Positions 9,431-22,925 of a DNA stretch of 64,000 nucleotides are shown in pieces (within the stretch, counting starts at the first letter, position 1; the number at the start of each line of letters is the position of its first letter). The notes under the pieces were generated by a model that ran no database searches, was not told the DNA's origin, and saw only the letters and a list, made by a program, of their open reading frames with translations. Both the position numbers and the translations under genes were made by a program. The stretch comes from an uncultured Tenacibaculum sp. (GTDB taxonomy: Bacteria; Bacteroidota; Bacteroidia; Flavobacteriales; Flavobacteriaceae), in assembly GCF_947495995.1 (NCBI RefSeq), contig NZ_CANMAX010000002.1, positions 186,001-250,000 on the forward strand. Reading direction: 5' to 3'.

Positions 9431-10702
9431 TTAGTTTAGCTTTTCTGTAATTTTTTCTAGAGCTAAATTATGAATACTTCCAATATGAGTATGTTTTTTT
9501 GATGTATCAGGCTCGTAAAAGCCATTTTCTACCTCTGAACTTATCTTTTGATAAGCTTCTCTAAAAGGAACTCCATTTGTTACTAGATTATTAATATTAT
9601 CAACCGTGAATAAGTATTTGTACTTATCATCATTAATATCTACATCTTTAACTATAATTTGTTTGATACTATAATTAAATATATCTATAACATTTTTAGT
9701 GTTTTCAATAGCTTTAATACTGTTTTCTTTTAATAACTGATAATCTCTGTGATATCCACTAGGTAAATTGTTTGTAAGCAATAACATTTCTGTTTGAACA
9801 GCTTGTATTTGATTACACTTTCCTCTAATCAATTCAAAAACATCTGGATTCTTTTTATGAGGCATAATACTACTTCCGGTAGTTAGTTCATCAGGAAAAG
9901 AGATAAAACCAAAATTTTGGCTCATATATAAACAAATATCCATAGAAAATTTACTTAACGTATTTGCTAAATTACCAAGTGAACTGGCTAATATTCGTTC
10001 ATTTTTTCCTCTTGCCATTTGAGCAGCAACAACATTGTATTTTAATGTTGAAAAATTAAGTTCTTTAGTTGTAAATTCTCTATCAATAGGAAAAGAACTA
10101 CCGTATCCAGCAGCAGAACCTAAAGGATTTTGATCTACAATTTTTAATGTTGCAGTTAGCAATTCAATATCATCTAATAAAGTTTCAGCATAAGCAGAAA
10201 ACCATAAACCAAAAGAAGAAGGCATGGCAACTTGTAAATGTGTATATCCTGGCAATAATTTATGCTGATGAGTTTCTGCTAAAGAAATTAAGGTTTTAAA
10301 TAAAGTTTTAACCTTTTCAAGAATAACTGTGATTTCATTTTTGTAATACAGTTGCAAGGCCACCAAAACTTGATCGTTTCTAGATCTTGCAGTGTGTATT
10401 TTTTTACCAACTTCACCTAGTTTAAGTGTTAGTTCGTATTCTATTTTTGAGTGAACATCTTCAAATGTTTGGTCTATTTTGAAGTTGTTTTGTGTTATTT
10501 CATCTAATAAATGATCTAATTCTTTTACAAGAATGTTGGCTTCTTCATGAGAAATAATTCCTACAGAAGCCAACATTTTTGCATGTGCTTTTGAAGCTAG
10601 TACATCGTATTTTGCAATAAATAGATCAATCTCTCTATCGTTTCCTACTGTAAAATCTTCAATAGCTTGATCTAATGAAAACTCTTTTTTCCAAAGTTTC
10701 AT
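9431..10702 (-). CDS. argH: Argininosuccinate lyase
   Basis: This enzyme splits argininosuccinate into arginine and fumarate, the last arginine step. At 423 residues it is shorter than ArgH of Escherichia coli at the C-terminus but complete for the core. HTARSRNDQ near residue 103 is the substrate-binding segment, PGYTHLQ near 151 holds the conserved His, and the flexible catalytic loop GSSIMPHKKNPD spans 276-287. It is the last gene of the minus-strand arginine operon, separated from argE by a small secreted protein gene. There is no N-terminal or C-terminal acetyltransferase fusion. Confidence 0.95.
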   Translation of the reverse strand: MKLWKKEFSLDQAIEDFTVGNDREIDLFIAKYDVLASKAHAKMLASVGIISHEEANILVKELDHLLDEITQNNFKIDQTFEDVHSKIEYELTLKLGEVGKKIHTARSRNDQVLVALQLYYKNEITVILEKVKTLFKTLISLAETHQHKLLPGYTHLQVAMPSSFGLWFSAYAETLLDDIELLTATLKIVDQNPLGSAAGYGSSFPIDREFTTKELNFSTLKYNVVAAQMARGKNERILASSLGNLANTLSKFSMDICLYMSQNFGFISFPDELTTGSSIMPHKKNPDVFELIRGKCNQIQAVQTEMLLLTNNLPSGYHRDYQLLKENSIKAIENTKNVIDIFNYSIKQIIVKDVDINDDKYKYLFTVDNINNLVTNGVPFREAYQKISSEVENGFYEPDTSKKHTHIGSIHNLALEKITEKLN

Positions 10703-10723: not shown

Positions 10724-11134
10724 TTATCTACTTGCAGTGAGATTATTATCATCTATAATCTCAAGTACACAAGTTCTTGCTCTACAGACTCCACGTCCAA
10801 CAATTCTAAGCTCAGCAATAGTTTTTCCATGTCTTTTTTTGATAACAGGAGCACTAAAAAGTCTTGTGTCATTCAATCTATTGTTATGTAATTCTTTAGA
10901 ATTTGTACGACCAATATGGGTAATCATATTGTTTTCAGCTTTTACCCAAACCGTAATCGTTCTTCTGAAGTTAGTTTTAAGATTGATTGTTGCAAAACCA
11001 TTCGGTGTTATACAATTACTATATGCTTTATACCAGCCATCTGGTAAGGTTTCTTTTTTGTTCTCTTTTTCTTGAGCAAACATTGAAAAACTAAATAGTA
11101 AGGTTAAACAGAAGGTAAATATTTTTTTTTTCAT
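10724..11134 (-). CDS. Small secreted protein inserted in the arginine operon
   Basis: From the ATG at 11134 the protein has 136 residues and begins with a signal peptide (KKKIFTFCLTLLFSFSMFAQ). An ATG four codons earlier is possible but adds a polar stretch. The mature part includes GWYKAYSNCITPNGFATI and ends near GRGVCRARTCVLEI, with three cysteines that could form a disulfide. I recognise no family. It lies 56 bp after argE and 21 bp before argH, so it is likely cotranscribed with them, although nothing in it suggests arginine metabolism. Its function is unknown. Confidence 0.6.
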   Translation of the reverse strand: MKKKIFTFCLTLLFSFSMFAQEKENKKETLPDGWYKAYSNCITPNGFATINLKTNFRRTITVWVKAENNMITHIGRTNSKELHNNRLNDTRLFSAPVIKKRHGKTIAELRIVGRGVCRARTCVLEIIDDNNLTASR

Positions 11135-11190
11135 AATTAATTGCATTTTAGTTAAAATACTACTGAAAAACCATCAAAAATCGTTCCGTT

Positions 11191-12258
11191 TTACTCTTTT
11201 AGAACAGAAGTTAAAATCTTAATATAGAGATCTATTCCTTCTTTAATTTCATCAATATAAATAAACTCATCTGCGGTATGAGAACGCCTACTATCACCAG
11301 GACCTAATTTTACAGATTGACAGCTTAAAACTGACTGATCTGATAGGGTAGGAGAACCATAAGTTTCTCTTCCTAAAGCAATACCAGCTTGTATTAATTC
11401 GTGATTTTTATCTATTGATGATGAATTTAAACGTAAACTTCTCGGTACAATCTCACAAGGAGCTTCATTTTGTAATAAATCAGCAATTTCTTGATTTGTA
11501 TATTTATCGTTTACACGAACATCTACAACCAAATCTACTGCAGATGGAACCGCGTTATGTTGTTTTCCTGCGTTAATTTGTGTGACGGTCATTTTCACAT
11601 CGCCTAAAACTTCCGAAGTTTTATCAAACGTGTAGTTTTTAAACCATTCTAAAACCTCTATAGTATTGTAAATTGGATTATCCTCATTAGGATGTGCAGC
11701 GTGACTCGGTGTTCCTTTGACTTTAGCATCAAAAACAATCAATCCTTTTTCGGCAATAGCTAATTGCATTAATGTTGGTTCTCCAACAATGGCTACGTCA
11801 ATTTTAGGAATTATAGATAACATGCTATTTAATCCGTTTGAACCACTACTTTCTTCTTCAGCAGAACCAACAAAAACTAAATTATAGTTTAAATTTTCTT
11901 GATGATAAAAATGAGTGAATGTTGCTAATAAAGAAACCAAACATCCTCCAGCATCGTTACTTCCTAAACCATATAATTTTCCATCTTCTACAATGGCTTT
12001 ATGTGGATTTTTTGTGTATCCGTTGTTTGGATAAACAGTATCGTGATGAGAGTTTAGTAAAATAGTTGGTTTACTTTCATCAAAATATTTATTGATAGCC
12101 CAAATATTATTATTGGTTCTCTTATAATCGATACTATGAATCGTACACCAATAGGCTAAAGCTTCCGCAGTTTTATCTTCTTCTGAAGAAAACGATGGAA
12201 TCTCTATAAGTTTTTTTAAGAGATCGATAGCGCTATAGGTAAGTTCTTTTTGTGTCAT
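11191..12258 (-). CDS. argE: M20-family deacylase for N-acyl-citrulline/ornithine (ArgE-like)
   Basis: This zinc-dependent hydrolase removes the acyl group from the arginine intermediate. M20 motifs are visible: NSHHDTVYP holds the first metal His and Asp, GSNDAGGC the bridging Asp, GSAEEESSGSNG the catalytic Glu pair, and ARGRE-like C-terminal region ends with a metal His (RRSHTADEF). The start at ATG 12258 overlaps the argB stop (TAATG); an upstream ATG at 12279 would lie inside argB. Because the operon has an ArgF' transcarbamylase acting on acyl-ornithine, the natural substrate is probably acyl-citrulline rather than acyl-ornithine. This is inference from the pathway. Confidence 0.85.
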   Translation of the reverse strand: MTQKELTYSAIDLLKKLIEIPSFSSEEDKTAEALAYWCTIHSIDYKRTNNNIWAINKYFDESKPTILLNSHHDTVYPNNGYTKNPHKAIVEDGKLYGLGSNDAGGCLVSLLATFTHFYHQENLNYNLVFVGSAEEESSGSNGLNSMLSIIPKIDVAIVGEPTLMQLAIAEKGLIVFDAKVKGTPSHAAHPNEDNPIYNTIEVLEWFKNYTFDKTSEVLGDVKMTVTQINAGKQHNAVPSAVDLVVDVRVNDKYTNQEIADLLQNEAPCEIVPRSLRLNSSSIDKNHELIQAGIALGRETYGSPTLSDQSVLSCQSVKLGPGDSRRSHTADEFIYIDEIKEGIDLYIKILTSVLKE

Positions 12259-13034
12259 TATTGTTGAAACGTTGTACATTTTACATTCGTGTTAAAAGGC
12301 ATTGTGTTATTTCCTATGTGAACACTGTTTACACCTTTTTTAATTGCTTGTAAACAGTTATGTATTTTAGGAAGCATGCCTTCATTAATTATTTCGTTAC
12401 GCTTTAAATCTTCAAATATCTTTTCATCAATCTTTTCAACTACGGAACCATCGTCTGTAATATCTGTTAATACACCATTTTTTTCAAAACAGTAATAAAG
12501 CGCAACTTTATATGATTTAGATAAAGCTATTGCTAATTCAGCAGCAATAGTATCTGCATTTGTATTTAGTAATTGTCCGTTCTCATCGTGTGTAATGGCA
12601 CAAAAAATCGGACTAATTTTATTGTCTAGTAAAATCCGAGAAGTCTCAGTGTTTATTTCAACAACATCACCAACAAAACCATAATCTATAGTAGTTACAG
12701 GTCTTTTTACAGAAACAATAGTATTGCCGTCTGCACCAGAAAAGCCAATACTATTACATTTTCTAGCTTGTAATTGAGCAACAATATTCTTGTTGATTTT
12801 TCCACCGTAAACCATCGTTATAATCTCTAAAGTATCAGCATCAGTAATTCTACGTCCATTAATCATATTAGGACTAATTCCCATTTTTACTGATAATTCA
12901 GAAGCAGCTCTTCCACCACCATGAACTAAAATTTTTGGCGATTCAAGTTTGGCAAAATCATCAAGGAAATCACCCAATAATTTTTCGTTATTGATTACGT
13001 TTCCTCCAATTTTTATAATTTTTAATTCTTGCAT
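12258..13034 (-). CDS. argB: N-acetyl (or N-succinyl) glutamate kinase
   Basis: This enzyme phosphorylates the acylated glutamate side chain, the second step of the pathway. The 258-residue length and motifs fit the amino acid kinase family: KIGGNVI near residue 9 (Lys binding phosphate), VHGGGRAASELS near 38 (acylglutamate site), NADTIAAELA near 155 and the C-terminal INEGMLPKI. It lacks the N-terminal helix typical of hexameric, arginine-inhibited ArgB enzymes, so feedback inhibition by arginine may be absent; this is inference. It starts one base after the argF' stop region and overlaps the argE start. Confidence 0.88.
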   Translation of the reverse strand: MQELKIIKIGGNVINNEKLLGDFLDDFAKLESPKILVHGGGRAASELSVKMGISPNMINGRRITDADTLEIITMVYGGKINKNIVAQLQARKCNSIGFSGADGNTIVSVKRPVTTIDYGFVGDVVEINTETSRILLDNKISPIFCAITHDENGQLLNTNADTIAAELAIALSKSYKVALYYCFEKNGVLTDITDDGSVVEKIDEKIFEDLKRNEIINEGMLPKIHNCLQAIKKGVNSVHIGNNTMPFNTNVKCTTFQQ

Positions 13035-13035
13035 G

Positions 13036-13971
13036 TTATAAGTTTTCGAGGATGTTTTTTAAAACAACCTGAGCTGCATATGTTCTATTGTTTGCCTGAT
13101 TTATTACTAAAGAATTATCAGAATCTAAAACTGCATCTTCAACAACAACATTTCTTCTTACAGGTAAGCAATGCATAAATTTAGCATTATTAAGCTTATG
13201 TTGTGTAATCATCCAATTGCTATCTTGACTTAATATTTGTCCGTAATCCGCATAAGAACTCCAGTTTTTCACATAAACAAAATCCGCATTTTTTAAAGCC
13301 TCTTCTTGATCGTAATTTACCTGAGTGTCTTTTGTGATTTCAGTACTTAATTCATAACCTTTCGGATGTGTAATTGTTAGATTTACAGGTAATTTTTGCA
13401 TCATATTTACAAAAGAATTCGCTACAGATTGTGGTAAAGCTTTAGGATGTGGTGCCCAAGACAAAACAACATTTGGTTTTTCATTTTTATGAAACTCATT
13501 AATAGTAATAGCATCTGCTAATGCTTGTAACGGATGCGCTGTTGAGCTTTCTAAATTCACTACAGGAACATCTGCGTATTTTGAGAAACTATTCATAATT
13601 ACTTCTGCATAATCCAATTCTTTATCTTTTAGTGTTGGAAATGCTCTTACTGCAATTATATCTGCATATTGCGCAATTACTTTTGCCGCTTCTTTAATAT
13701 GCTCAGAAGTGGACAAATTCATTACAGTTCCGTCTTCAAATTCTAAATTCCAAGAATTACTAATTTGCAAGCAAATAACATCCATTCCTAGATTTTTAGC
13801 AGCTTTTTCAGTACTTAATCTAGTTCTTAAACTAGCATTAAAAAACAACATTACTAAGGTTTTATTTTTACCTAAGTTTTTATGCTCAAATGGAGCTTTT
13901 TTTAATGCTATTGCTTCTGTTATTGTTTGGGGTATATTTTTAATATCATTGATTTCAGTATATTTTTTCAT
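13036..13971 (-). CDS. argF': N-acyl-L-ornithine transcarbamylase (ArgF')
   Basis: This enzyme transfers the carbamoyl group to acylated ornithine, giving acyl-citrulline. It has the transcarbamylase phosphate loop variant FFNASLRTRLS, HPLQALADA for the carbamoyl site, WAPHPKALPQ and the C-terminal HCLPVRRN. LPVRRN and HPLQ are those of the SOTCase/AOTCase group, not of ordinary ornithine transcarbamylase. The start at ATG 13971 (MKKYTEI) fits the family; an ATG at 14001 adds ten poorly matched residues from within a repeat-flanked spacer. Whether the acyl group is acetyl or succinyl cannot be settled: the loop that discriminates them reads STSEHIKEAA here. Confidence 0.85.
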   Translation of the reverse strand: MKKYTEINDIKNIPQTITEAIALKKAPFEHKNLGKNKTLVMLFFNASLRTRLSTEKAAKNLGMDVICLQISNSWNLEFEDGTVMNLSTSEHIKEAAKVIAQYADIIAVRAFPTLKDKELDYAEVIMNSFSKYADVPVVNLESSTAHPLQALADAITINEFHKNEKPNVVLSWAPHPKALPQSVANSFVNMMQKLPVNLTITHPKGYELSTEITKDTQVNYDQEEALKNADFVYVKNWSSYADYGQILSQDSNWMITQHKLNNAKFMHCLPVRRNVVVEDAVLDSDNSLVINQANNRTYAAQVVLKNILENL

Positions 13972-13996
13972 GGGTTTGAGTGTTAAAAGTGTTGGC

Positions 13997-14118
13997 GTCA
14001 TTGCGAATGAAATGAAGCAATCATAATTTTTTATTAATAGATTCCTTCGTTAATTCTTTCCTCGGAATGACTACTGTTTTTGGCAGTAGTAGAAAAGAGA
14101 TAAACATTCAGTATGACA
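13997..14118 (-). repeat. Intergenic palindromic repeat between argD and argF'
   Basis: Two imperfect inverted arms, 13997-14022 (starting GTCATTGCGAATGAAATGAA) and 14040-14071 (ending TTTCCTCGGAATGAC), face each other, and a third related half lies at about 14079-14118 ending ATTCAGTATGACAG. Such GTCATT...GAAGCAATC palindromes are familiar mobile-like extragenic repeats in Bacteroidota genomes. In RNA each would fold into a stem. Being inside an operon, it may modulate mRNA stability rather than terminate. Confidence 0.7.
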
Positions 14119-14130
14119 GATAATTAATTT

Positions 14131-15270
14131 TTATACTTTTTGTAACTCTAATGCTTTTGTTAATGCATTGATAAAAACATCTACATGTTCTTTCTTAACG
14201 GTTAATGAAGGAAGAATACGTAGTAAGTTCGAATTTTTAGAACTTCCTGTAAAGATGTGATGATTATAAATCAATTCTTTACGTAACTCTGCAATTGGGA
14301 AGTCAAATTCTAAACCAAGCATTAATCCCCGTCCTTTTACTTTTTTTATTTCTGAAATTTGTGATACTTTGTGAATAAAATAGGTTGAAATTTCATCAAC
14401 ATTATCTAATAGTTTTTCTTGCTGAATCGTTTCTATAACTGCTAAAGCAGCAGTACAAGCCAAATGATTTCCACCAAAAGTGGTTCCTAATAAACCAAAT
14501 GATGCTTTAATTTTCGGATGAATTAAAATTCCTCCCACAGGAAAACCATTTCCCATTCCTTTAGCCATTGAAATAATATCTGGTTCTATTCCATGTTTTT
14601 GAAAAGCAAAGAAATCACCGGTTCTACCAAAACCAGATTGAACTTCATCAGCGATCAATAAGGTGCCGAATTGTTTACAAAGTTGTTCTACAGTTTTGTA
14701 AAACGCTGTAGAAGCTTCATCTAAACCTCCAACTCCTTGAATAATTTCTGTGATTATTGCGCAAACATCTCCTTTAGCCAAAATCTTAGTTAAAGCTTCG
14801 ATGTCTCCAAACTCAACGAATTCAACGGCTTGTTGTGCGTTAATTGGTGCAACAATTTTCGGATTATCTGTTGCAGCTACAGCTGCCGAAGTTCTACCGT
14901 GAAATGCATTTTTAAAAGCTACTACTTTATGTTTTTGCGTATGAAAAGAGGCTAATTTTATAGCATTTTCGTTGGCTTCTGCTCCAGAATTACATAAAAA
15001 TAACTCGTAAAGGTTGCATCCAGATATGGTTGTTAATTTATCTGCTAGTTGTTGTTGTAACGGATTTTGAATAGAATTACTATAAAATCCAATATTTGCT
15101 AGTTGTTGTTGTAATTTTCCTACGTAAGTAGGGTGAGAATGACCAATGGAAATCACTGCATGTCCTCCGTATAAGTCTAAATATTGTGTGCCATTTTCAT
15201 CATACACATATACATCTTTAGCCTTTACAGGAGTGATATCGAATAATGGATAAACGTTAAATAAACTCAT
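14131..15270 (-). CDS. argD: Acyl-ornithine aminotransferase (class III PLP)
   Basis: This PLP enzyme converts acylated glutamate semialdehyde to acyl-ornithine. The 379-residue protein carries the class-III motifs: CNSGAEANENAIKLA near 93 for the phosphate pocket, FHGRTSAA near 123, ADEVQSGFGRTG near 207 with the cofactor Asp, and Lys237 in SMAKGMGNGFPVGG for the Schiff base. The start overlaps the proC stop in an ATGA. An ornithine aminotransferase function is possible, but the operon and absence of another ArgD in view support the biosynthetic role. Confidence 0.92.
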   Translation of the reverse strand: MSLFNVYPLFDITPVKAKDVYVYDENGTQYLDLYGGHAVISIGHSHPTYVGKLQQQLANIGFYSNSIQNPLQQQLADKLTTISGCNLYELFLCNSGAEANENAIKLASFHTQKHKVVAFKNAFHGRTSAAVAATDNPKIVAPINAQQAVEFVEFGDIEALTKILAKGDVCAIITEIIQGVGGLDEASTAFYKTVEQLCKQFGTLLIADEVQSGFGRTGDFFAFQKHGIEPDIISMAKGMGNGFPVGGILIHPKIKASFGLLGTTFGGNHLACTAALAVIETIQQEKLLDNVDEISTYFIHKVSQISEIKKVKGRGLMLGLEFDFPIAELRKELIYNHHIFTGSSKNSNLLRILPSLTVKKEHVDVFINALTKALELQKV

Positions 15271-16067
15271 ATTTGTTCTTTTTTAATAGTGTTAATTTTA
15301 TTGAAAGAAGCAACCATTCCTTGAATTAATGAAGAACTTAAACCTTTGTGTTCCATTTCATTTAAACCTTCAATTGTACATCCTTTCGGTGTAGTTACTT
15401 TATCGATCTCTTGCTCTGGATGATTTCCAGATTGAATTAATAAGTTAGCAGCTCCTTCACTTGTGAACATCGCTAATTCCTGTGCTTCTTTAGCATCAAA
15501 ACCTAATTGAATAGCAGCCTGTGTAGTTGCACGAATTAAACGCATCCAAAACGCAATTCCACTTGCACATACCACGGTTGCAGCTTGCATTAAGTTTTCA
15601 GGAATAATCATGCTATTTCCAAGTTGATTGAAAATAGATTCAGCAATAGTAATTTTACTAGTATCATTAGTATTGGCAGAAATACAAGTCATCGATTTTT
15701 CTACTGCAATTGCTGTATTAGGCATTGCCCTTATAATTGAAAAACCTTGACCTAAAATGTTTTCAATTTTTTCTATGGAAAAACCTGTGATTGTTGAAAT
15801 TACAAGTTGTTCTTTATTGATATATTCTTTAGATTGAAACAAGATTTCTTCTAACTGTTTTGGTTGAACTGCAAAAATTAAAACATCAGAATTTTGAATT
15901 GCTTCACTATTATTACTGGTGATAACAATATTCTCTTGTTTTGGTAAATCGTTTAATTCACTTACATTTCTTTTAGTTAAGTACAGTGAATTAAAGTTCT
16001 GACCTTTTATCAATCCTTTAGCTATGGATTTTCCTAAGTTTCCTGTTCCTATGATTGCTATTTTCAT
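15267..16067 (-). CDS. proC: Pyrroline-5-carboxylate reductase
   Basis: This NAD(P)H enzyme makes proline from pyrroline-5-carboxylate. The N-terminal Rossmann motif is IGTGNLGKSIAKGL, and the C-terminal signature is GCTIEGLNEMEHKGL with the preceding TTPKG. The 266-residue length is normal. It lies in the middle of the arginine operon, which is common in Flavobacteriaceae and couples proline formation to the glutamate/ornithine branch. An acyl-ornithine-related reductase role is conceivable but not needed to explain it. It is translationally coupled to argD. Confidence 0.92.
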   Translation of the reverse strand: MKIAIIGTGNLGKSIAKGLIKGQNFNSLYLTKRNVSELNDLPKQENIVITSNNSEAIQNSDVLIFAVQPKQLEEILFQSKEYINKEQLVISTITGFSIEKIENILGQGFSIIRAMPNTAIAVEKSMTCISANTNDTSKITIAESIFNQLGNSMIIPENLMQAATVVCASGIAFWMRLIRATTQAAIQLGFDAKEAQELAMFTSEGAANLLIQSGNHPEQEIDKVTTPKGCTIEGLNEMEHKGLSSSLIQGMVASFNKINTIKKEQI

Positions 16068-16231: not shown

Positions 16232-17209
16232 TTAGAAAAAATTAGCTTTTAATTGTAGTCCTTCAGTCTCTTCAAAACCAAACATTAAATTCATGTTTTG
16301 TACTGCTTGTCCAGAAGCTCCTTTTAATAAATTATCAATACAACTTGTGATTAATAATTGATTCTCATGTTTATGAACATGTATTAAACATTTATTGGTG
16401 TTCACTACTTGCTTCAGATGTAAAGTTTGGTCAGCAACAAAAGTGAAAGCAGCGTCTTTATAAAACTCTTTATAAATTTTAATAGCTTCTTCTTCTGAAC
16501 CTGAAAATTCTGTATAAACAGTAGCAAATATTCCTCTAGAAAAGTTTCCTCTATTCGGTAAGAATAAAACTTGGTGTTTACTTTCTGATTGAAATTTTTC
16601 TATGGTTTGATAAATCTCTCCTAAATGTTGATGCGTAAAAGGCTTGTAATAGGAAAAGTTATTATCTCTCCAGGTAAAATGTGTTGTTTTCGATAAACTA
16701 GTTCCTGCACCAGTTGTACCAGTTACAGCATTTACATGAATGTTATTTTTGATTAGTTTTTCTGATGCTAAAGGAGCAATAGCTAATTGAATCGCAGTAG
16801 CAAAACAACCTGGATTTGCAATATAATTCGCATTAATTATTTCCTCTTTATTGATTTCAGGTAAGCCATATATGTATTCATTTCCTTGAAATACTTTATC
16901 GTTTACAAGTCTGAACTCATTACTTAAATCAATAATTTTTGTAGTATCAGAAAATTGATGTTCCGCAAGAAATTTACCAGAATTTCCGTGTCCTAAACAC
17001 AAGAATAAAACATCAACATTAGTATTAATTGTGTGTGTAAATTTTTGATCTATAGATCCAACTAAATCTTGATGAACCGCGCTAATTGGATTACCAGCAT
17101 TTGAAGTACTGAAAACAAAATCAATTAAGACTTCTTTATGATGTATTAATAATCTAATTAATTCTCCTGCTGTATAACCAGCTCCACCTATAATTCCAGC
17201 TTTAATCAT
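16232..17209 (-). CDS. argC: N-acyl-gamma-glutamyl-phosphate reductase
   Basis: This enzyme reduces acylglutamyl phosphate to the semialdehyde with NADPH. The N-terminus has the Rossmann sequence GIIGGAGYTAGELIRLL, and the active-site Cys135 sits in ANPGCFATAIQLA, the ArgC signature. The GTTGAGTSLSKTTHF segment follows. The length of 325 residues is normal. The start overlaps the end of argG by eight bases. A palindromic repeat separates it from proC downstream. Confidence 0.93.
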   Translation of the reverse strand: MIKAGIIGGAGYTAGELIRLLIHHKEVLIDFVFSTSNAGNPISAVHQDLVGSIDQKFTHTINTNVDVLFLCLGHGNSGKFLAEHQFSDTTKIIDLSNEFRLVNDKVFQGNEYIYGLPEINKEEIINANYIANPGCFATAIQLAIAPLASEKLIKNNIHVNAVTGTTGAGTSLSKTTHFTWRDNNFSYYKPFTHQHLGEIYQTIEKFQSESKHQVLFLPNRGNFSRGIFATVYTEFSGSEEEAIKIYKEFYKDAAFTFVADQTLHLKQVVNTNKCLIHVHKHENQLLITSCIDNLLKGASGQAVQNMNLMFGFEETEGLQLKANFF

Positions 17210-18389
17210 GACTATTGGTATTTTGATAGATTTTAGTTTGATTTCCGTAAATATTAATGAAACCTTTAGCGTCTTCTGCAGTCCAAGCGTTATTCATTTC
17301 ACCATAACTACCAAATTTCGATTGTAACAAATCGTTATCCGAAGAAATTCCGTTTAAAGTAAAATGGTAAGGCTTTAGAGTTATAAATACATCTCCCGTT
17401 ACTTGTTGTTGACTGCTACTTAACATAGCTTCTAAATCTCTCATCACAGGATCGAGATATAATCCTTCATGTAAGTGATTTCCGTACCAGTTAGCTACAT
17501 AATCTTTATGCTGTAATTGCCATTTGGTTAATGTATGTTTTTCTAATAAGTGATGTGCTTTAATAATTAACAAAGCAGCAGCAGCTTCAAAACCAACTCT
17601 TCCTTTAATACCTAGAATGGTGTCACCAACATGAATATCTCTACCAATAGCGTATTTAGAAGCGATATTATTTAGTTTTTCAATGATAACTCCAGAAGCA
17701 TCTTTTTCGTCGTTAATTGCTATAGGTTCTCCTTTTACAAAGGAAATTTTAATGTCTGTAGCTTTTGTTTCTTGTAGTTGAGAAGGATATGCTTCTTCTG
17801 GTAAGGCTAGGTGAGAGGTTAATGTTTCATCACCACCAACACTAGTTCCCCATAAACCTTTGTTTACAGAGTATTTAGCTTTACTCCAAGATAAATCTAC
17901 ACCGTGACTTTGTAGATAAGCAATTTCTTCTTGTCTGCTTAACTTTTTATCTCTAATTGGAGTAATAATTTTAATATTAGGAGCCAATGTGTTAAAGATT
18001 AAATCGAAACGAACTTGATCATTTCCAGCTCCAGTACTACCGTGTGCAATATATTCTGCTCCAATAGATTTTGCATAATTAATAATCTCTATGGCTTGTA
18101 CAATTCTTTCTGCACTTACTGATAATGGATACGTATTGTTTTTTAATACATTTCCGTAGATTAAGTATTTAATTACTTTTTCGTAGTAATTGTGAACTGC
18201 ATCTATATTTTTATATGTTTTTACACCTAATTGATATGCTTTACTTTCAATATCATGTATTTCTTCTTTGGTAAAGCCACCTGTGTTTACACTAACAGCA
18301 TGAACTTCAAAATTTTCATCCTTTGTTAAGTGTATTGCACAATAAGAAGTGTCTAAACCGCCGCTATATGCTAAAACTAATTTTTTCAT
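17202..18389 (-). CDS. argG: Argininosuccinate synthase
   Basis: This ATP-dependent enzyme joins citrulline and aspartate. LAYSGGLDTSYC near residue 6 is the PP-loop pyrophosphatase motif, and the GSTGAGNDQVRFD segment near 117 is the citrulline/aspartate region (the usual form is GCTGKGNDQVRFE, so the central residues differ, as in the Bacteroidota group). The 395-residue length is normal. The start overlaps the end of the GNAT gene by four bases (ATGA). Confidence 0.93.
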   Translation of the reverse strand: MKKLVLAYSGGLDTSYCAIHLTKDENFEVHAVSVNTGGFTKEEIHDIESKAYQLGVKTYKNIDAVHNYYEKVIKYLIYGNVLKNNTYPLSVSAERIVQAIEIINYAKSIGAEYIAHGSTGAGNDQVRFDLIFNTLAPNIKIITPIRDKKLSRQEEIAYLQSHGVDLSWSKAKYSVNKGLWGTSVGGDETLTSHLALPEEAYPSQLQETKATDIKISFVKGEPIAINDEKDASGVIIEKLNNIASKYAIGRDIHVGDTILGIKGRVGFEAAAALLIIKAHHLLEKHTLTKWQLQHKDYVANWYGNHLHEGLYLDPVMRDLEAMLSSSQQQVTGDVFITLKPYHFTLNGISSDNDLLQSKFGSYGEMNNAWTAEDAKGFINIYGNQTKIYQNTNSHD

Positions 18390-19003
18390 TTTTTCTCTTT
18401 TTTTAAGAATAAATGTTGTTTGATACTTTTCAACCTAGTGAATGTTTTCTCTTTAAATTTCTTAGGTTGATTTTTATTTTCGGTAGCTGGATCATACAAC
18501 ATTCCCGTACATAAACACATTTTTTGTTCTGTTCTCGTCAAAACATCATAATTTACACAGGTTTTACATCCATCCCAAAACGTTTGATCTGTTGTTAATT
18601 CAGAAAATGTAACGGGTTTATAACCTAGGTTACTATTAAGTTTCATAACAGCTAATCCAGTAGTAATACTGAAGATTTTAGCATTGGGAAACTTGGTTCT
18701 TGAATGATCAAAAATCTTTTGTTTGATTTTTTTTGATAAACCTAAACCTCTAAAGTTAGGATGAACGATTAATCCAGAATTGGCAACAAATTTTCCATGT
18801 CCCCAAGATTCTATATAACAAAAACCGGCAAATGTATTTCCATCTAAAGCGATAACTGCGTTACCTTTTTCCATTTTAGAAATAATATATTCTGGTTTTC
18901 TCTTTGCAATACCTGTACCTCTAATTTTAGCTGCATTTTCTATGGTAGTACAAATTTCTTCTGCGTAAATTTTATGTGATATATCGGCAATAATGATTTC
19001 CAT
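18386..19003 (-). CDS. GNAT N-acyltransferase heading the arginine operon, with Cys cluster (ArgA-like)
   Basis: The 205-residue protein has a GNAT fold: motif A is HPNFRGLGLSKKIKQKIF at about 81-98, preceded by the hydrophobic beta-4 strand NSGLIV. The C-terminal part carries four cysteines, C146-x2-C149 and C163-x-C165, which could bind zinc, followed by a Lys-rich tail. It heads the operon, and no argA, argJ or separate N-acylglutamate synthase is otherwise visible, so it is the best candidate for the enzyme that acylates glutamate at the first step. This role is inference from position. Its first gene location directly after the Arg-rich leader also places it under the control of that leader. 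Confidence 0.7.
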   Translation of the reverse strand: MEIIIADISHKIYAEEICTTIENAAKIRGTGIAKRKPEYIISKMEKGNAVIALDGNTFAGFCYIESWGHGKFVANSGLIVHPNFRGLGLSKKIKQKIFDHSRTKFPNAKIFSITTGLAVMKLNSNLGYKPVTFSELTTDQTFWDGCKTCVNYDVLTRTEQKMCLCTGMLYDPATENKNQPKKFKEKTFTRLKSIKQHLFLKKEKK

Positions 19004-19081
19004 TACCTTGATTTTAAATTGTTTGTTCTAAATTTTTTTTGAAGAAGAACCGGACTCACCTAAGTTCTATTAGTCATATAA

Positions 19082-19093
19082 GCCCTTACGGGC
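19082..19093 (-). terminator. Short GC hairpin at the end of the arginine leader
   Basis: On the minus strand the RNA reads GCCC-GUAA-GGGC followed by UUAUAU, a four-pair GC stem with a GUAA tetraloop and a short U-rich tail. Its position about 80 bases before the first structural gene fits a regulatory stop. It is short for an intrinsic terminator, so the function is uncertain. Confidence 0.35.
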
Positions 19094-19178
19094 GCGGGAA
19101 AAAGCGTCGTACAGAAATCCTATTATCAGTTGTGATAATTATGATTGGTAACGATAAAAAAGTATTGTAAGATTGCAT
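19086..19178 (-). CDS. Putative second leader peptide (30 aa) with Arg codons
   Basis: Read on the minus strand, an ATG at 19178 opens a 30-codon frame with a run of four isoleucines and ends with IS-V-R-R-F-F-P-R-P and TAA at 19086-19088. It contains four Arg codons (AGG, CGA, CGC, CGC), three of them in the last seven codons. Its GC-rich end overlaps the short hairpin GCCC-GTAA-GGGC (19082-19093), so the stop codon lies in the loop. The IS-x-R-R section resembles the ISLRR of the first leader. It could be the terminal peptide of the attenuator or a chance ORF; I see no start signal. Confidence 0.4.
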   Translation of the reverse strand: MQSYNTFLSLPIIIITTDNRISVRRFFPRP

Positions 19179-19232
19179 GATGATGTTAATAAGATAAAAT
19201 TCAAATTTCTATTTATTCTTAGGTAAGAATGA

Positions 19233-19298
19233 ACTAGCGGCGTCGCATGGGGCGTCGTCGGCGTAATGAAATTTGATTTGTCTTATTGCTTGTATGCA
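19233..19298 (-). CDS. Arginine-rich leader peptide of the arg operon (putative attenuator)
   Basis: Read on the minus strand from ATG 19298, this 21-codon frame encodes MHTSNKTNQISLRRRRPMRRR and stops at TAG 19233-19235. Seven of the last nine codons are Arg, all CGC or CGA. It lies about 230 bases upstream of the arginine operon and on the same strand. An Arg-rich leader peptide before an Arg biosynthetic operon is the pattern expected for ribosome-mediated attenuation, as known for his, trp and thr leaders. The ORF is too short for standard gene callers. No strong Shine-Dalgarno site precedes it, which is usual for Bacteroidota. Its function is inferred from composition and position. Confidence 0.7.
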
Positions 19299-19302
19299 TG
19301 CT

Positions 19303-19332
19303 GCTAAAGTATAAAAAAAAATAATACACCAA
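19303..19332 (-). promoter_or_regulatory. Possible promoter of the arg leader
   Basis: On the minus strand TTG (19332-19330) is followed after 19 bases by TACTTTAG (19310-19303), a near match to the Bacteroidota TTG-N19-TAnnTTTG promoter. The last element lies only four bases before the leader ATG at 19298, so transcription from it would start at about the ATG and give an essentially leaderless ORF. The seventh base of the -7 element differs from consensus. Confidence 0.35.
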
Positions 19333-19342
19333 ACTTATTTTA

Positions 19343-19422
19343 CAAAATTTTACAGTTCGTCATCAAAATTTTACAATTCGGTAATAATAAGTTTTAAAAT
19401 ACACAATGTGACAGCATCTTTG
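19343..19422 (+). promoter_or_regulatory. Paired LytTR-type operator and promoter of the DUF2141/LytS operon
   Basis: The 17-mer CAAAATTTTACAGTTCG at 19343-19359 recurs with one mismatch at 19364-19380, a 21-bp period. The cores ACAGTTCGT (19352) and ACAATTCGG (19373) resemble LytTR recognition sites, which are known as 9-10 bp direct repeats separated by 12-13 bp. CATCTTTG (19415-19422), a variant of the TAnnTTTG element, starts exactly 42 bp after the start of the second box. The second LytS operon shows the same geometry at 23695-23765. Autoregulation by the encoded LytTR regulator is therefore likely. Confidence 0.65.
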
Positions 19423-19452
19423 AAGTGTAATTAATCTTTAAAACTAAATACA

Positions 19453-21282: not shown

Positions 21283-21582
21283 ATGGAGTTACTCAAAGAA
21301 GAGGAAATCAGATACATGAGAGCTCTTAAAAAAGTAAAAGAGATCAAAGAGTTTTATAGTCATTTAGTGATTTACATAATTGTTATTCCGATGCTAATTT
21401 TCATCAACTTAAAATTTTCTCCACAATTTCATTGGTTTTGGTTTTCAGTATTTGGTTGGGGAATAGGATTATTTTCTCACGGATTTCAAGTTTTTGATGG
21501 CTTTAAATTAATAATGGGAAAAGATTGGGAAGAACGTAAAATTAACGAATACATAAAAGAATACAATAGAAATGGAAAATAA
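21283..21582 (+). CDS. 2TM-domain membrane protein, copy 1
   Basis: The 99-residue protein is one 2TM domain: an amphipathic start (RYMRALKKVKEIKEFYSHL), a first hydrophobic helix (VIYIIVIPMLIFINL), the FSPQFHWFWFSVFGWGIG second helix and the ending GKDWEERKINEYI. It starts five bases after the LytS stop codon. It closely resembles the C-terminus of that kinase and copy 2. The domain is common next to LytTR systems in Bacteroidota, with unknown biochemical role. Confidence 0.8.
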   Translation: MELLKEEEIRYMRALKKVKEIKEFYSHLVIYIIVIPMLIFINLKFSPQFHWFWFSVFGWGIGLFSHGFQVFDGFKLIMGKDWEERKINEYIKEYNRNGK

Positions 21583-21853
21583 TTATATAGAAGAACAACG
21601 CTATTTAAAAGCAAAGAAAAAAGTAAAAGAAATTAAAGGTTTTTATGTGCATTTAGCATTATACCTATTAAACACTCCAATTATAGTATACACTAATTTA
21701 ACTTTTTCTCCTCAGTTTCATTGGTTTTGGTTTTCTGTCTTAGGTTGGGGAGTTGCTATAGGAATTCACGGCTTTTTAGCTTTTAGTGATAATCTTTTTA
21801 GTAAAGAATGGGAAGAGCGTAAGATTAGAGAAATAATGAATAAAAAGTATTAA
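21572..21853 (+). CDS. 2TM-domain membrane protein, copy 2
   Basis: This 93-residue copy overlaps the end of copy 1 by 11 bases. It has the conserved YLKAKKKVKEIKGFYVHL opening, FSPQFHWFWFSVLGWGVA in the second helix and EWEERKIREIM at the end. It keeps the HWFWF core of copies 1 and the kinase, whereas later copies replace it. Such overlapping tandem genes suggest translation as one coupled set. Confidence 0.8.
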   Translation: MENNYIEEQRYLKAKKKVKEIKGFYVHLALYLLNTPIIVYTNLTFSPQFHWFWFSVLGWGVAIGIHGFLAFSDNLFSKEWEERKIREIMNKKY

Positions 21854-21855
21854 CC

Positions 21856-22200
21856 ATGGAGCAAGATTTTTTAGAAGAGCAGCGCTATTTAAAAGCTAAA
21901 AAGAAAGTAAAAGATATTAAAGGATTTTACGGTCATTTAGTAGCTTATATTCTTGTAAATCTTTTTTTAAGTGCTATTATAATTGTTGGTATAATGAATG
22001 ATAATGGTAATTCTTTTGAAGATGCTATTAGTAACTTCGGTGTATATTCTACTTGGTTGTTTTGGGGAATAGGAGTTTTCTTTCATTGGTTAGGAGTTTT
22101 CGGATTTGGTAACTTGTTATCTAAAGATTGGGAAGACAAGAAAATTAAAGAATTCATGGAAAAGGATAGAAAGAGAAATCAAAAAATGTTAAATCACTAA
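21856..22200 (+). CDS. 2TM-domain membrane protein, copy 3
   Basis: This 114-residue copy starts three bases after the copy 2 stop codon and repeats YLKAKKKVKDIKGFYGHL, then a longer first helix (LVAYILVNLFLSAIIIVGI) and an inserted acidic loop (DNGNSFEDAISNFG), then TWLFWGIGVFFHW and KDWEDKKIKEFM. The FSPQFHWF element of copies 1 and 2 is replaced, so copies 3 and 4 form a second subgroup with the inserted loop. Confidence 0.8.
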   Translation: MEQDFLEEQRYLKAKKKVKDIKGFYGHLVAYILVNLFLSAIIIVGIMNDNGNSFEDAISNFGVYSTWLFWGIGVFFHWLGVFGFGNLLSKDWEDKKIKEFMEKDRKRNQKMLNH

Positions 22201-22204
22201 AACT

Positions 22205-22549
22205 ATGTTTGTAACAAATTATACTGAAGAACAAGAATACATTAAAGCTAAGAAGCGAGTAGAGGAATTGAAGAATTTCTACAGACATTTAGCTGTGTAC
22301 ATCATTATAAATTTTTTCATTTCAGCAATGAAAATTAGAAGAAACTTATTGAATGGAGAATCTTTTGAAGAAGCTTTTTTCGACTTTGGAACGTTCGCTG
22401 TATGGATTTTTTGGGGAATAGGAATCGTTTTTCAAGCATTACGATTATTCGGACCAAACTTTTTATTCGGAAGAGATTGGGAAAGAAGAAAAATAGAAGA
22501 GTTAATGCGTGAGGAAGAAGACAAAAAAAGAAAAATGCTAAGAAATTAA
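22205..22549 (+). CDS. 2TM-domain membrane protein, copy 4
   Basis: The 114-residue copy 4 is closest to copy 3 in length and in its inserted loop (NGESFEEAFFDFG), followed by WIFWGIGIVFQAL and the end GRDWERRKIEELM. It starts four bases after copy 3. The first helix (IYIIINFFISAMKI) is shorter and it has a charged C-terminal tail (EEEDKKRKM). The function is unknown, as for the other copies. Confidence 0.8.
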   Translation: MFVTNYTEEQEYIKAKKRVEELKNFYRHLAVYIIINFFISAMKIRRNLLNGESFEEAFFDFGTFAVWIFWGIGIVFQALRLFGPNFLFGRDWERRKIEELMREEEDKKRKMLRN

Positions 22550-22568
22550 TTTAAAACAGAAAAAAGTC

Positions 22569-22925
22569 ATGGTATTAGATGTAAAGAAGAATAAATATTT
22601 ACTAGCTAAGAAAGAAGCAGCGAAAATAAAATCGTTTTACGATCACTTAACAGTTTATCTGGTTTTTAATATAATTTTTGCCTTATCATCTAATGTGTCA
22701 GAAATAAACTTTCATATATTCGGTGGCTTTAAAATTAGTAACCTTTGGTATAATTTTGAAAACTTTAAAGTGTATCCTTTGTGGGCTGTTTGGGGAATTA
22801 TTGTGATTTTTCAAGCCATAGATGTTTACGCAATATCTATACTTTTAGGAAAGAATTGGGAAAAGCGAAAAATTAAAGAGCTAATAGAAAAAGATAAAAA
22901 ACAAGCAAATAAATATATAGACTAA
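22569..22925 (+). CDS. 2TM-domain membrane protein, copy 5
   Basis: At 118 residues this is the most diverged copy. It keeps the KYLLAKKEAAKIKSFYDHL opening, has a longer middle section (SNVSEINFHIFGGFKISNL), then PLWAVWGIIVIFQAI and KNWEKRKIKELI. It is 19 bases after copy 4 and 14 bases before the response regulator gene, so it belongs to the same transcript. Sequence drift towards the 3' end of the array suggests an amplification that is not recent. Confidence 0.78.
   Translation: MVLDVKKNKYLLAKKEAAKIKSFYDHLTVYLVFNIIFALSSNVSEINFHIFGGFKISNLWYNFENFKVYPLWAVWGIIVIFQAIDVYAISILLGKNWEKRKIKELIEKDKKQANKYID

Follow-up and report, generated by a model that had tools for sequence, protein, structure and literature searches.

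A putative arginine-sensing mRNA leader upstream of the arg operon in an uncultured Tenacibaculum species

The biosynthesis of arginine (Arg) in bacteria is, in the textbook mode, controlled by the ArgR repressor. Within the order Flavobacteriales, ArgR (PF02863) was identified in none of the 296 genomes sampled, 226 of which have a completeness of 90% or more and a contamination of 5% or less. Across the phylum Bacteroidota, it was present in 109 of 296 sampled genomes, one of these matches being marginal; among the control genomes for ArgR, 8 of 14 were matched in both searches. This raises the question of how arginine synthesis is regulated in this order. The present analysis concerns a stretch of 64,000 nucleotides (nt) from an uncultured Tenacibaculum sp. 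of the family Flavobacteriaceae (contig NZ_CANMAX010000002.1, positions 186,001 to 250,000), designated the window; its genome is one of the 296 without an ArgR match. Upstream of the arg operon, which begins with a gene for a GNAT acetyltransferase followed by argG, a leader with two short Arg-rich open reading frames (ORFs) and several conserved RNA helices was identified. This leader is proposed, with a probability of about 0.72, to be an arginine-sensing mRNA leader acting by ribosome stalling, and it offers a testable answer to the control of arginine synthesis where ArgR was not found. The leader and operon features described below are located on the minus strand of the window.

Two Arg-rich reading frames in the leader

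A preliminary description of the window had proposed a single Arg leader ORF at positions 19233 to 19298. The frame is real, but its placement was off by one base, since ORF1 extends from 19234 to 19299. By sequence and comparison, it is a predicted leaderless leader peptide of 21 codons with the sequence MHTSNKTNQISLRRRRPMRRR. As had been described, seven of its last nine codons are Arg, all of them CGC or CGA, and the stated distance of about 230 bases to the first arg gene agrees with the 231 nt that separate the end of ORF1 from the GNAT start codon at position 19003; from the start of ORF1 the distance is 296 nt.

For comparison, a set of 100 leaders was assembled from the window, 79 loci retrieved with the GNAT protein as query and 20 more from searches of whole genomes. 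Two of these were dropped as repeats of others, which left 98 non-identical leaders, and locus L062 was excluded because it contained only 108 nt of upstream sequence. Of the 189 relatives, the protein scan comprised the best 80, and the sample accordingly leans towards close ones. An alignment with the regions upstream of GNAT-argG in relatives had been set beforehand as the test of the Arg-rich leader, and an Arg-tailed ORF was found at the same place in 74 of the 98 leaders on the basis of position and Arg tail alone, or in 72 when the promoter motif was also required. The check for synonymous codons likewise spoke for a translated peptide: CGC, CGT and CGA are interchanged among the leaders, while the Arg tail and its position are kept and the N-terminal sequence has diverged.

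The promoter region of ORF1 contains a -7 box, TACTTTAG, at 19304 to 19311, which matches TAnnTTTG at five of six positions and ends 4 nt before the AUG. Reading of the sequence also revealed a TTTG at 19330 to 19333 as a possible -33 promoter element; a TTTG/-33 consensus has been quoted for Bacteroides (PMC7366714). A box with five or six of six matches, ending exactly 4 nt 5' of the ORF1 ATG, is present in 55 of the 74 ORF1-bearing leaders, compared to 8 of 571 other ATGs. In F. psychrophilum, the TAnnTTTG box is located at -12 to -5 relative to the start site, and leaderless mRNAs made up 5.5% of the mRNAs examined (PMC9723704). Based on the box spacing in the leaders and this published position, the AUG of ORF1 is predicted to lie at +1, and ORF1 would thus be a leaderless message with transcription starting at its AUG. 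The translation start signals of the phylum differ from Shine-Dalgarno (PMC9723704), and ORF1 is a strong candidate for leaderless translation serving as a sensor.

A second leader peptide, ORF2, is located between ORF1 and GNAT at 19086 to 19178. It has the sequence MQSYNTFLSLPIIIITTDNRISVRRFFPRP and ends with RRFFPRP before the stop codon. In 96 of the 98 leaders, its frame runs for 75 nt or more without a stop, compared to 15 and 6 leaders for the other two frames. In 85 leaders, an anchor Arg is followed by one more codon and then by the stop, in 83 of them as Arg-Pro-stop, and in the remaining 13 it is found up to nine codons farther downstream. Outside the Arg residues, the peptides of both ORF1 and ORF2 diverge widely. 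No Pfam family, DUF2618/PF10940 included, was matched by the ORF2 peptide or by the ORF1 peptide with three Ala added, short queries of this kind being a weak test. While ORF1 was correctly recognized in the preliminary description, the second ORF and the conserved RNA hairpins described below, which belong to the same system, had been overlooked.

The codon composition sets both ORFs apart from the genes that follow. Arg accounts for 22.4% of the codons in ORF1 and for 24.7% of those 12 codons of ORF2 that precede hairpin A (see below), compared to 2.3% in downstream frames, for which 89,584 codons from open frames 180 or more codons long at the same loci served as reference. The share of CGN among Arg codons is 86% in ORF1, 92% in ORF2 and 36% downstream, and for CGC alone the values are 52%, 37% and 5.5%. 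CGG is scarce in the leaders, with 4 of 362 Arg codons in ORF1 and 1 of 290 in ORF2. The tRNA-Arg genes found in the genome carry the anticodons ACG, TCG and TCT. From the CGN preference and this gene set, the ACG isoacceptor, which by standard decoding rules is expected to read CGU, CGC and CGA, is the likely sensor tRNA. As a separate observation, two loci (L176 and L205, G000:C2, at about 514-516 kb) contain a dense array of more than 10 tRNAs including a second tRNA-Arg(ACG), which is perhaps part of a mobile element.

Conserved RNA structure and occurrence of the element

Conserved helices were searched for block by block, comparing the pairing within one leader to the pairing between leaders, and this procedure picked out hairpins B and C and helix P1. 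Helix P1 is a long-range pairing of the ORF1 codons preceding the Arg run with the stretch before the ORF2 start, and amounts to -14.1 kcal/mol in the window leader. Its 5' arm (19268 to 19287) covers ORF1 codons 5-11 and stops 4 nt short of the first Arg codon, and its 3' arm (19188 to 19209) ends 9 nt before the ORF2 start codon. Hairpin C (ATTATCA-CAAC-TGATAAT, 19122 to 19139) is found inside ORF2, just 5' of its Arg codons. Hairpin A (GCCC-GUAA-GGGC, 19082 to 19094) has the ORF2 stop codon in its loop, as is usual among the leaders; it consists of 4-6 base pairs (bp), at least 4 bp being formed in all 98 leaders, and its sequence is nearly invariant. Hairpin B (19046 to 19068) combines a variable stem, 5 bp or longer in each of the 98 leaders, with a conserved A-GG-UGNGU-CC tip; with shuffled hairpin B partners, a helix of at least 4 bp was still obtained in 69 of the 98. 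Around the near-constant tip, 16 different inner stems were identified, and the tip itself reads AGGUGNGUCC in 92 of 98 leaders, AGAUGNGUUC, a paired change, in three and UGGUGNGUCC in three.

The helices P1, C and B covary. In a test with fixed blocks and 5000 permutations on 78 leaders (57 tandem leaders for P1), z was -9.5 for hairpin B, -11.1 for hairpin C and -8.8 for P1, and none of the 5000 permutations reached the observed pairing in any of the three cases. Since permutation tests do not fully remove relatedness, they were repeated at redundancy cut-offs of 0.60 and 0.50. The result of 0 of 5000 held for all three helices at cut-offs of 0.85 and 0.60; at the strictest cut-off, with 24 leaders, 12 of them tandem, B and P1 remained at 0 of 5000 and C was at 4 of 5000. 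One control block pair (a-100/b+20) gave an unexplained z of -3.3 (5 of 5000), with z of at most -2.6 nearby in a scan with another anchor, and the other two control pairs gave nothing. Additional pairings were considered and rejected: contacts between hairpin A and the tip of hairpin B showed no excess in cis in the permutation test, and a pairing inside ORF1 was weak, with a z of -3.3 that dropped to -1.8 at the strictest cut-off. A possible likeness of the hairpin B tip to the complement of the 16S 3' end was considered as well. In the search for an antiterminator, no alternative partner stood out for hairpin A or B.

No Rfam family, T-box and other cis-regulatory families included, was matched in the whole window, and the four matches obtained on 18950 to 19450 were far under their gathering scores. 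The leader thus contains a covariation-supported RNA element without an Rfam counterpart. The anchors of hairpins A and B were found by pattern search in 100 of 100 leaders, with no misses. An RNA model, R1, was built from 51 of 77 segments found by pattern; three leaders missed by that pattern were recovered with a looser one. In the Tenacibaculum genome itself, R1 matched the arg leader with an expectation value (E) of 2e-13, the next matches having E values of 5.7 and 6.9, and the AGGTGNGTCCNGTTC pattern occurs at one exact site and at one more site with a mismatch. In this genome, the model matches the arg leader only, which rules out that the element is a general 3' module of amino-acid operons here. 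In the order, 21 of 296 genomes were matched at E of at most 1e-5, all of them Flavobacteriaceae and all upstream of GNAT-argG, and in a phylum sample of 395 genomes all 16 matches at E of at most 1.7e-6 belonged to the same family. Four weak phylum matches (L107-L110, E 0.015-0.04), of which L107 comes from genus g2 of this family and the others from outside it, were rejected as noise, since neither GNAT nor argG was present on their loci of 2-3 kb.

Proposed mode of control and alternative explanations

In the proposed mechanism, transcription would start at the AUG of ORF1, as its promoter spacing implies, and ORF1 would be translated as a leaderless message. When charged tRNA-Arg is scarce, chiefly the ACG isoacceptor, ribosomes would be held up at the Arg runs of both ORFs. 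A ribosome that halts in the tail of ORF1 would adjoin and partly cover the 5' arm of P1, so that P1 could not hide the region before ORF2, and one that halts in the tail of ORF2 would mask hairpin A; both stalled states are proposed to be ON. With plentiful arginine, ribosomes would complete both peptides and depart, P1 and hairpin A would form and the operon would be turned down. This step would be something other than a strong intrinsic terminator, either weak or Rho-assisted termination at hairpin A and the U-rich stretch that follows it, or mRNA decay, and hairpin B with its conserved tip may be part of this final step. The two ORFs, their codon choice, the promoter spacing, helices P1, C and B, the linkage to the operon and the lack of a detectable ArgR in the sampled order are supported by sequence comparison. 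The stalling, its ON/OFF direction and the effector are suggested on this basis. As a more tentative extension, rather doubtful in its entirety, the leader might represent an RNA class of a new type, namely an arginine sensor with two gates. Tandem Arg peptides, of which the first has a leaderless start, would relay translation from ORF1 to ORF2 via P1, and the second ribosome would set the state of a new module of hairpins A and B. Such a sensor would control the arg operon without an intrinsic terminator and in place of ArgR in much of the Flavobacteriaceae, unrelated Arg leaders having arisen separately in sister families.

Several observations weigh against ribosome-stalling control. A terminator scan found no terminator-like site in the window leader, and where a lenient scan did detect such sites, in 39 of 98 arg leaders, the site was hairpin A in about 25. 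Conserved pairing to the GNAT start, as expected for translational control, was not found either: among 633 block pairs considered for hiding this start, pairing was at noise level (z spread 1.07), and the best pair (z -3.5) adjoins hairpin B. ORF1 was not found in 24 of 98 leaders without the promoter criterion and in 26 with it; in 15 of these 26, a single-ORF form is present, with an in-frame start of ORF2 6-8 nt after the promoter box. Hairpin A showed no excess in the permutation test, being too invariant for a covariation signal, and a hairpin D over the ORF1 stop was unsupported in the same test, with a z of -2.0 at best. With respect to distribution, GNAT is present in 144 of the 296 genomes of the order, 45 of them in the Flavobacteriaceae, and 24 of these 45 (genera g2 and g12) were without the R1 element in the order search; the remaining 21 all contain it. 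In family f5, all 10 loci inspected (L140-L149) are devoid of a leader ORF after the promoter box, which starts 28-46 nt before GNAT, ArgR being undetected in the order as a whole. Since the scans gave no terminator in the window leader and no conserved partner for the GNAT start, ribosome-stall control via P1 and hairpin A was chosen as the reading.

The same data bear on a classical transcription attenuator of the kind seen in the his leaders of this genus. In such a device, the Arg codons would decide between an antiterminator and an intrinsic terminator. This would fit the presence of short ORFs with Arg codons before the cognate operon, as well as the stretch after hairpin A, where T makes up 54% compared to 35% across the leader, and the lenient terminator-like sites, whose number dropped from 39 to 4 of 98 after a single mononucleotide shuffle. 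However, hairpin A comprises only 4-6 bp and its T tract is broken, T makes up only 31% after hairpin B, and the window leader lacks a terminator-like site. Moreover, canonical terminators look different in these bacteria: among his leaders from genomes of this genus and this order (L160-L175), which are textbook attenuators, a His-rich ORF is followed by a terminator with a stem of 7-15 bp in 14 of 16 cases, as found in a scan by similar rules. A classical attenuator is therefore considered unlikely, although it retains an appreciable chance; from the lenient sites at hairpin A and the T-rich stretch behind it, weak termination may take place at this hairpin. The preliminary description had named the region a probable attenuator of the trp/his type. 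The leader peptide as such has held up by its position, its Arg tail, the CGN interchange, the promoter box and the lack of an ArgR match in the 296 genomes of the order, but the label of attenuator in this sense lacks such support, since a scan of the window leader gave no intrinsic terminator.

Two further explanations are each judged improbable. Ligand-dependent self-stalling is known for some other leader peptides, and the nascent ORF2 peptide, ending in Arg-Pro-stop, could stall its own ribosome upon binding arginine or ornithine. Pro before a stop codon is a slow termination context, and the conservation of this ending in 83 of 98 leaders would fit such an arrest peptide. The Pro codon, however, sits in the 5' arm of hairpin A, and in L063 and L075 Pro is lost while hairpin A is kept by compensatory changes, which points to a constraint on the RNA rather than on the peptide there; the stop farther downstream in 13 leaders and the wide divergence of both peptides apart from Arg also speak against it. 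Alternatively, hairpins A and B could form a metabolite aptamer, that is, an arginine riboswitch, or a protein-binding site, the Arg ORFs being secondary. The constancy of the hairpin B tip, the restriction of the element to the arg operon within the genome and the retention of hairpins A and B in leaders from which ORF1 is missing are in line with this possibility. It is opposed by the conservation of the ORF2 frame and its Arg codons alongside the hairpins, and a pure aptamer would leave an Arg content of 22-25% with a CGN choice without explanation. The coincidental GC-rich repeat, which had been offered as the alternative to a leader peptide, can practically be dismissed. The Arg codons do form a GC-rich island within an AT-rich leader, but across 98 leaders the reading frame is kept, together with its codon choice, its position and the covarying helices, and the frame, codon and covariation tests refute a functionless chance repeat.

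Related leaders and the downstream operon

The literature search yielded no description of a Bacteroidota arginine leader, most subscription papers being outside its coverage. For F. psychrophilum, strong clues for leader-peptide attenuation before amino-acid operons have been reported; the main text of that paper contains neither 'argG' nor 'arg operon', and an arg case might be present in its supplements (PMC9723704). The arg leader described here is a variant form of the principle of leader-peptide attenuation, without an Rfam match. With the trp/his-type attenuators, such as the his leaders mentioned above, it shares the run of cognate codons in a short ORF before the operon. The his leaders, however, have a single ORF followed by a canonical terminator, the start of this ORF lying, by eye, at least about 16 nt downstream of the promoter box. 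In the arg leader, there are two ORFs, the first is predicted to be leaderless, and a terminator of this kind was not found in the window.

In its logic, the nearest studied relative appears to be the speF leader of Salmonella. There, a short ORF with consecutive Arg codons (orf34) is located in a long structured leader with hairpins at the stop codon and downstream of it, as are hairpins A and B in 98 of 98 arg leaders, and the outcome is set by the progress of the ribosome, with Rho and mRNA decay acting instead of a simple intrinsic terminator (PMC6386406). The speF leader differs in controlling ornithine decarboxylase instead of arginine biosynthesis, and in having one ORF, with a DUF2618/PF10940 domain and Shine-Dalgarno initiation, in gammaproteobacteria (PMC6386406). 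A leaderless leader peptide is already known from S. meliloti trpL, where the 5' end of the RNA coincides with the ATG of the leader ORF; trpL is a single Trp leader with a terminator and, in the text available, without a tandem ORF (PMC7298713). In rbfL of S. aureus, Arg codons of a short upstream ORF likewise slow ribosomes at low arginine, but the codons are AGA/AGG, the ribosome binding site of a biofilm regulator is blocked and expression drops at low arginine; a conserved RNA element is not described in the available part of that paper (PMC13009471).

Other leaders were found upstream of GNAT in related groups. In genus g2, another conserved leader peptide is encoded 5 nt downstream of a TAnnTTTG box at nine of nine loci examined (L128 and L132-L139). 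Its sequence is mostly MNK(I/T)S(L/S/V)H(I/L/T)TSLSRT...TSPEVRML(SL), that of L133 being more diverged. These peptides are related to one another and contain only two or three Arg, and a small ACTTC-TCCC-GAAGT hairpin is visible in the gene. Ten further GNAT loci from families f2, f3, f7, f9 and f15 and genus g12 were inspected. In four of them (L152, L153, L156 and L158), a promoter box is followed at 6-8 nt by an unrelated peptide that contains Arg, which suggests a repeated origin of arginine leaders; L150, L151 and L157 contain Arg-rich ORFs for which no box was found by the scan, and L154, L155 and L159 gave no clear leader call.

The operon downstream of the leader starts with the GNAT acetyltransferase gene (18386 to 19003, PF00583), the product of which is, by its position, a candidate first-step enzyme and is 100% identical to the protein of locus L002 on an uncultured Tenacibaculum contig. 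It is followed by argG (17202 to 18389, TIGR00032), argC (16232 to 17209, TIGR01850) and proC (15267 to 16067, TIGR00112), all above the cut-offs of their models. The next gene (14131 to 15270) codes for an argD-like acetylornithine/succinylornithine transaminase, with TIGR00707 as best match below its cut-off, and the one after it (13036 to 14001) for an acylornithine carbamoyltransferase, with NF003384 as best match at 280.4 bits versus a cut-off of 288. Then argB (12258 to 13034, TIGR00761 above cut-off) and a gene for an ArgE/DapE-type deacylase (11191 to 12279, best match TIGR01910, below its cut-off) are located, and between the latter and argH (9431 to 10702, TIGR00838 above cut-off) lies an ORF of 140 residues (10724 to 11146) without an NCBIfam or Pfam match. 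In the genomes of family f16, which have sizes of 0.3-0.6 Mb, the GNAT match is found within an open frame of about 570-650 codons, suggesting a GNAT-ArgG fusion. Elsewhere in the window, at 21283 to 22925 on the plus strand, five successive small ORFs that by eye are alike in length and sequence are located between a sensor-kinase-like and a response-regulator-like ORF.
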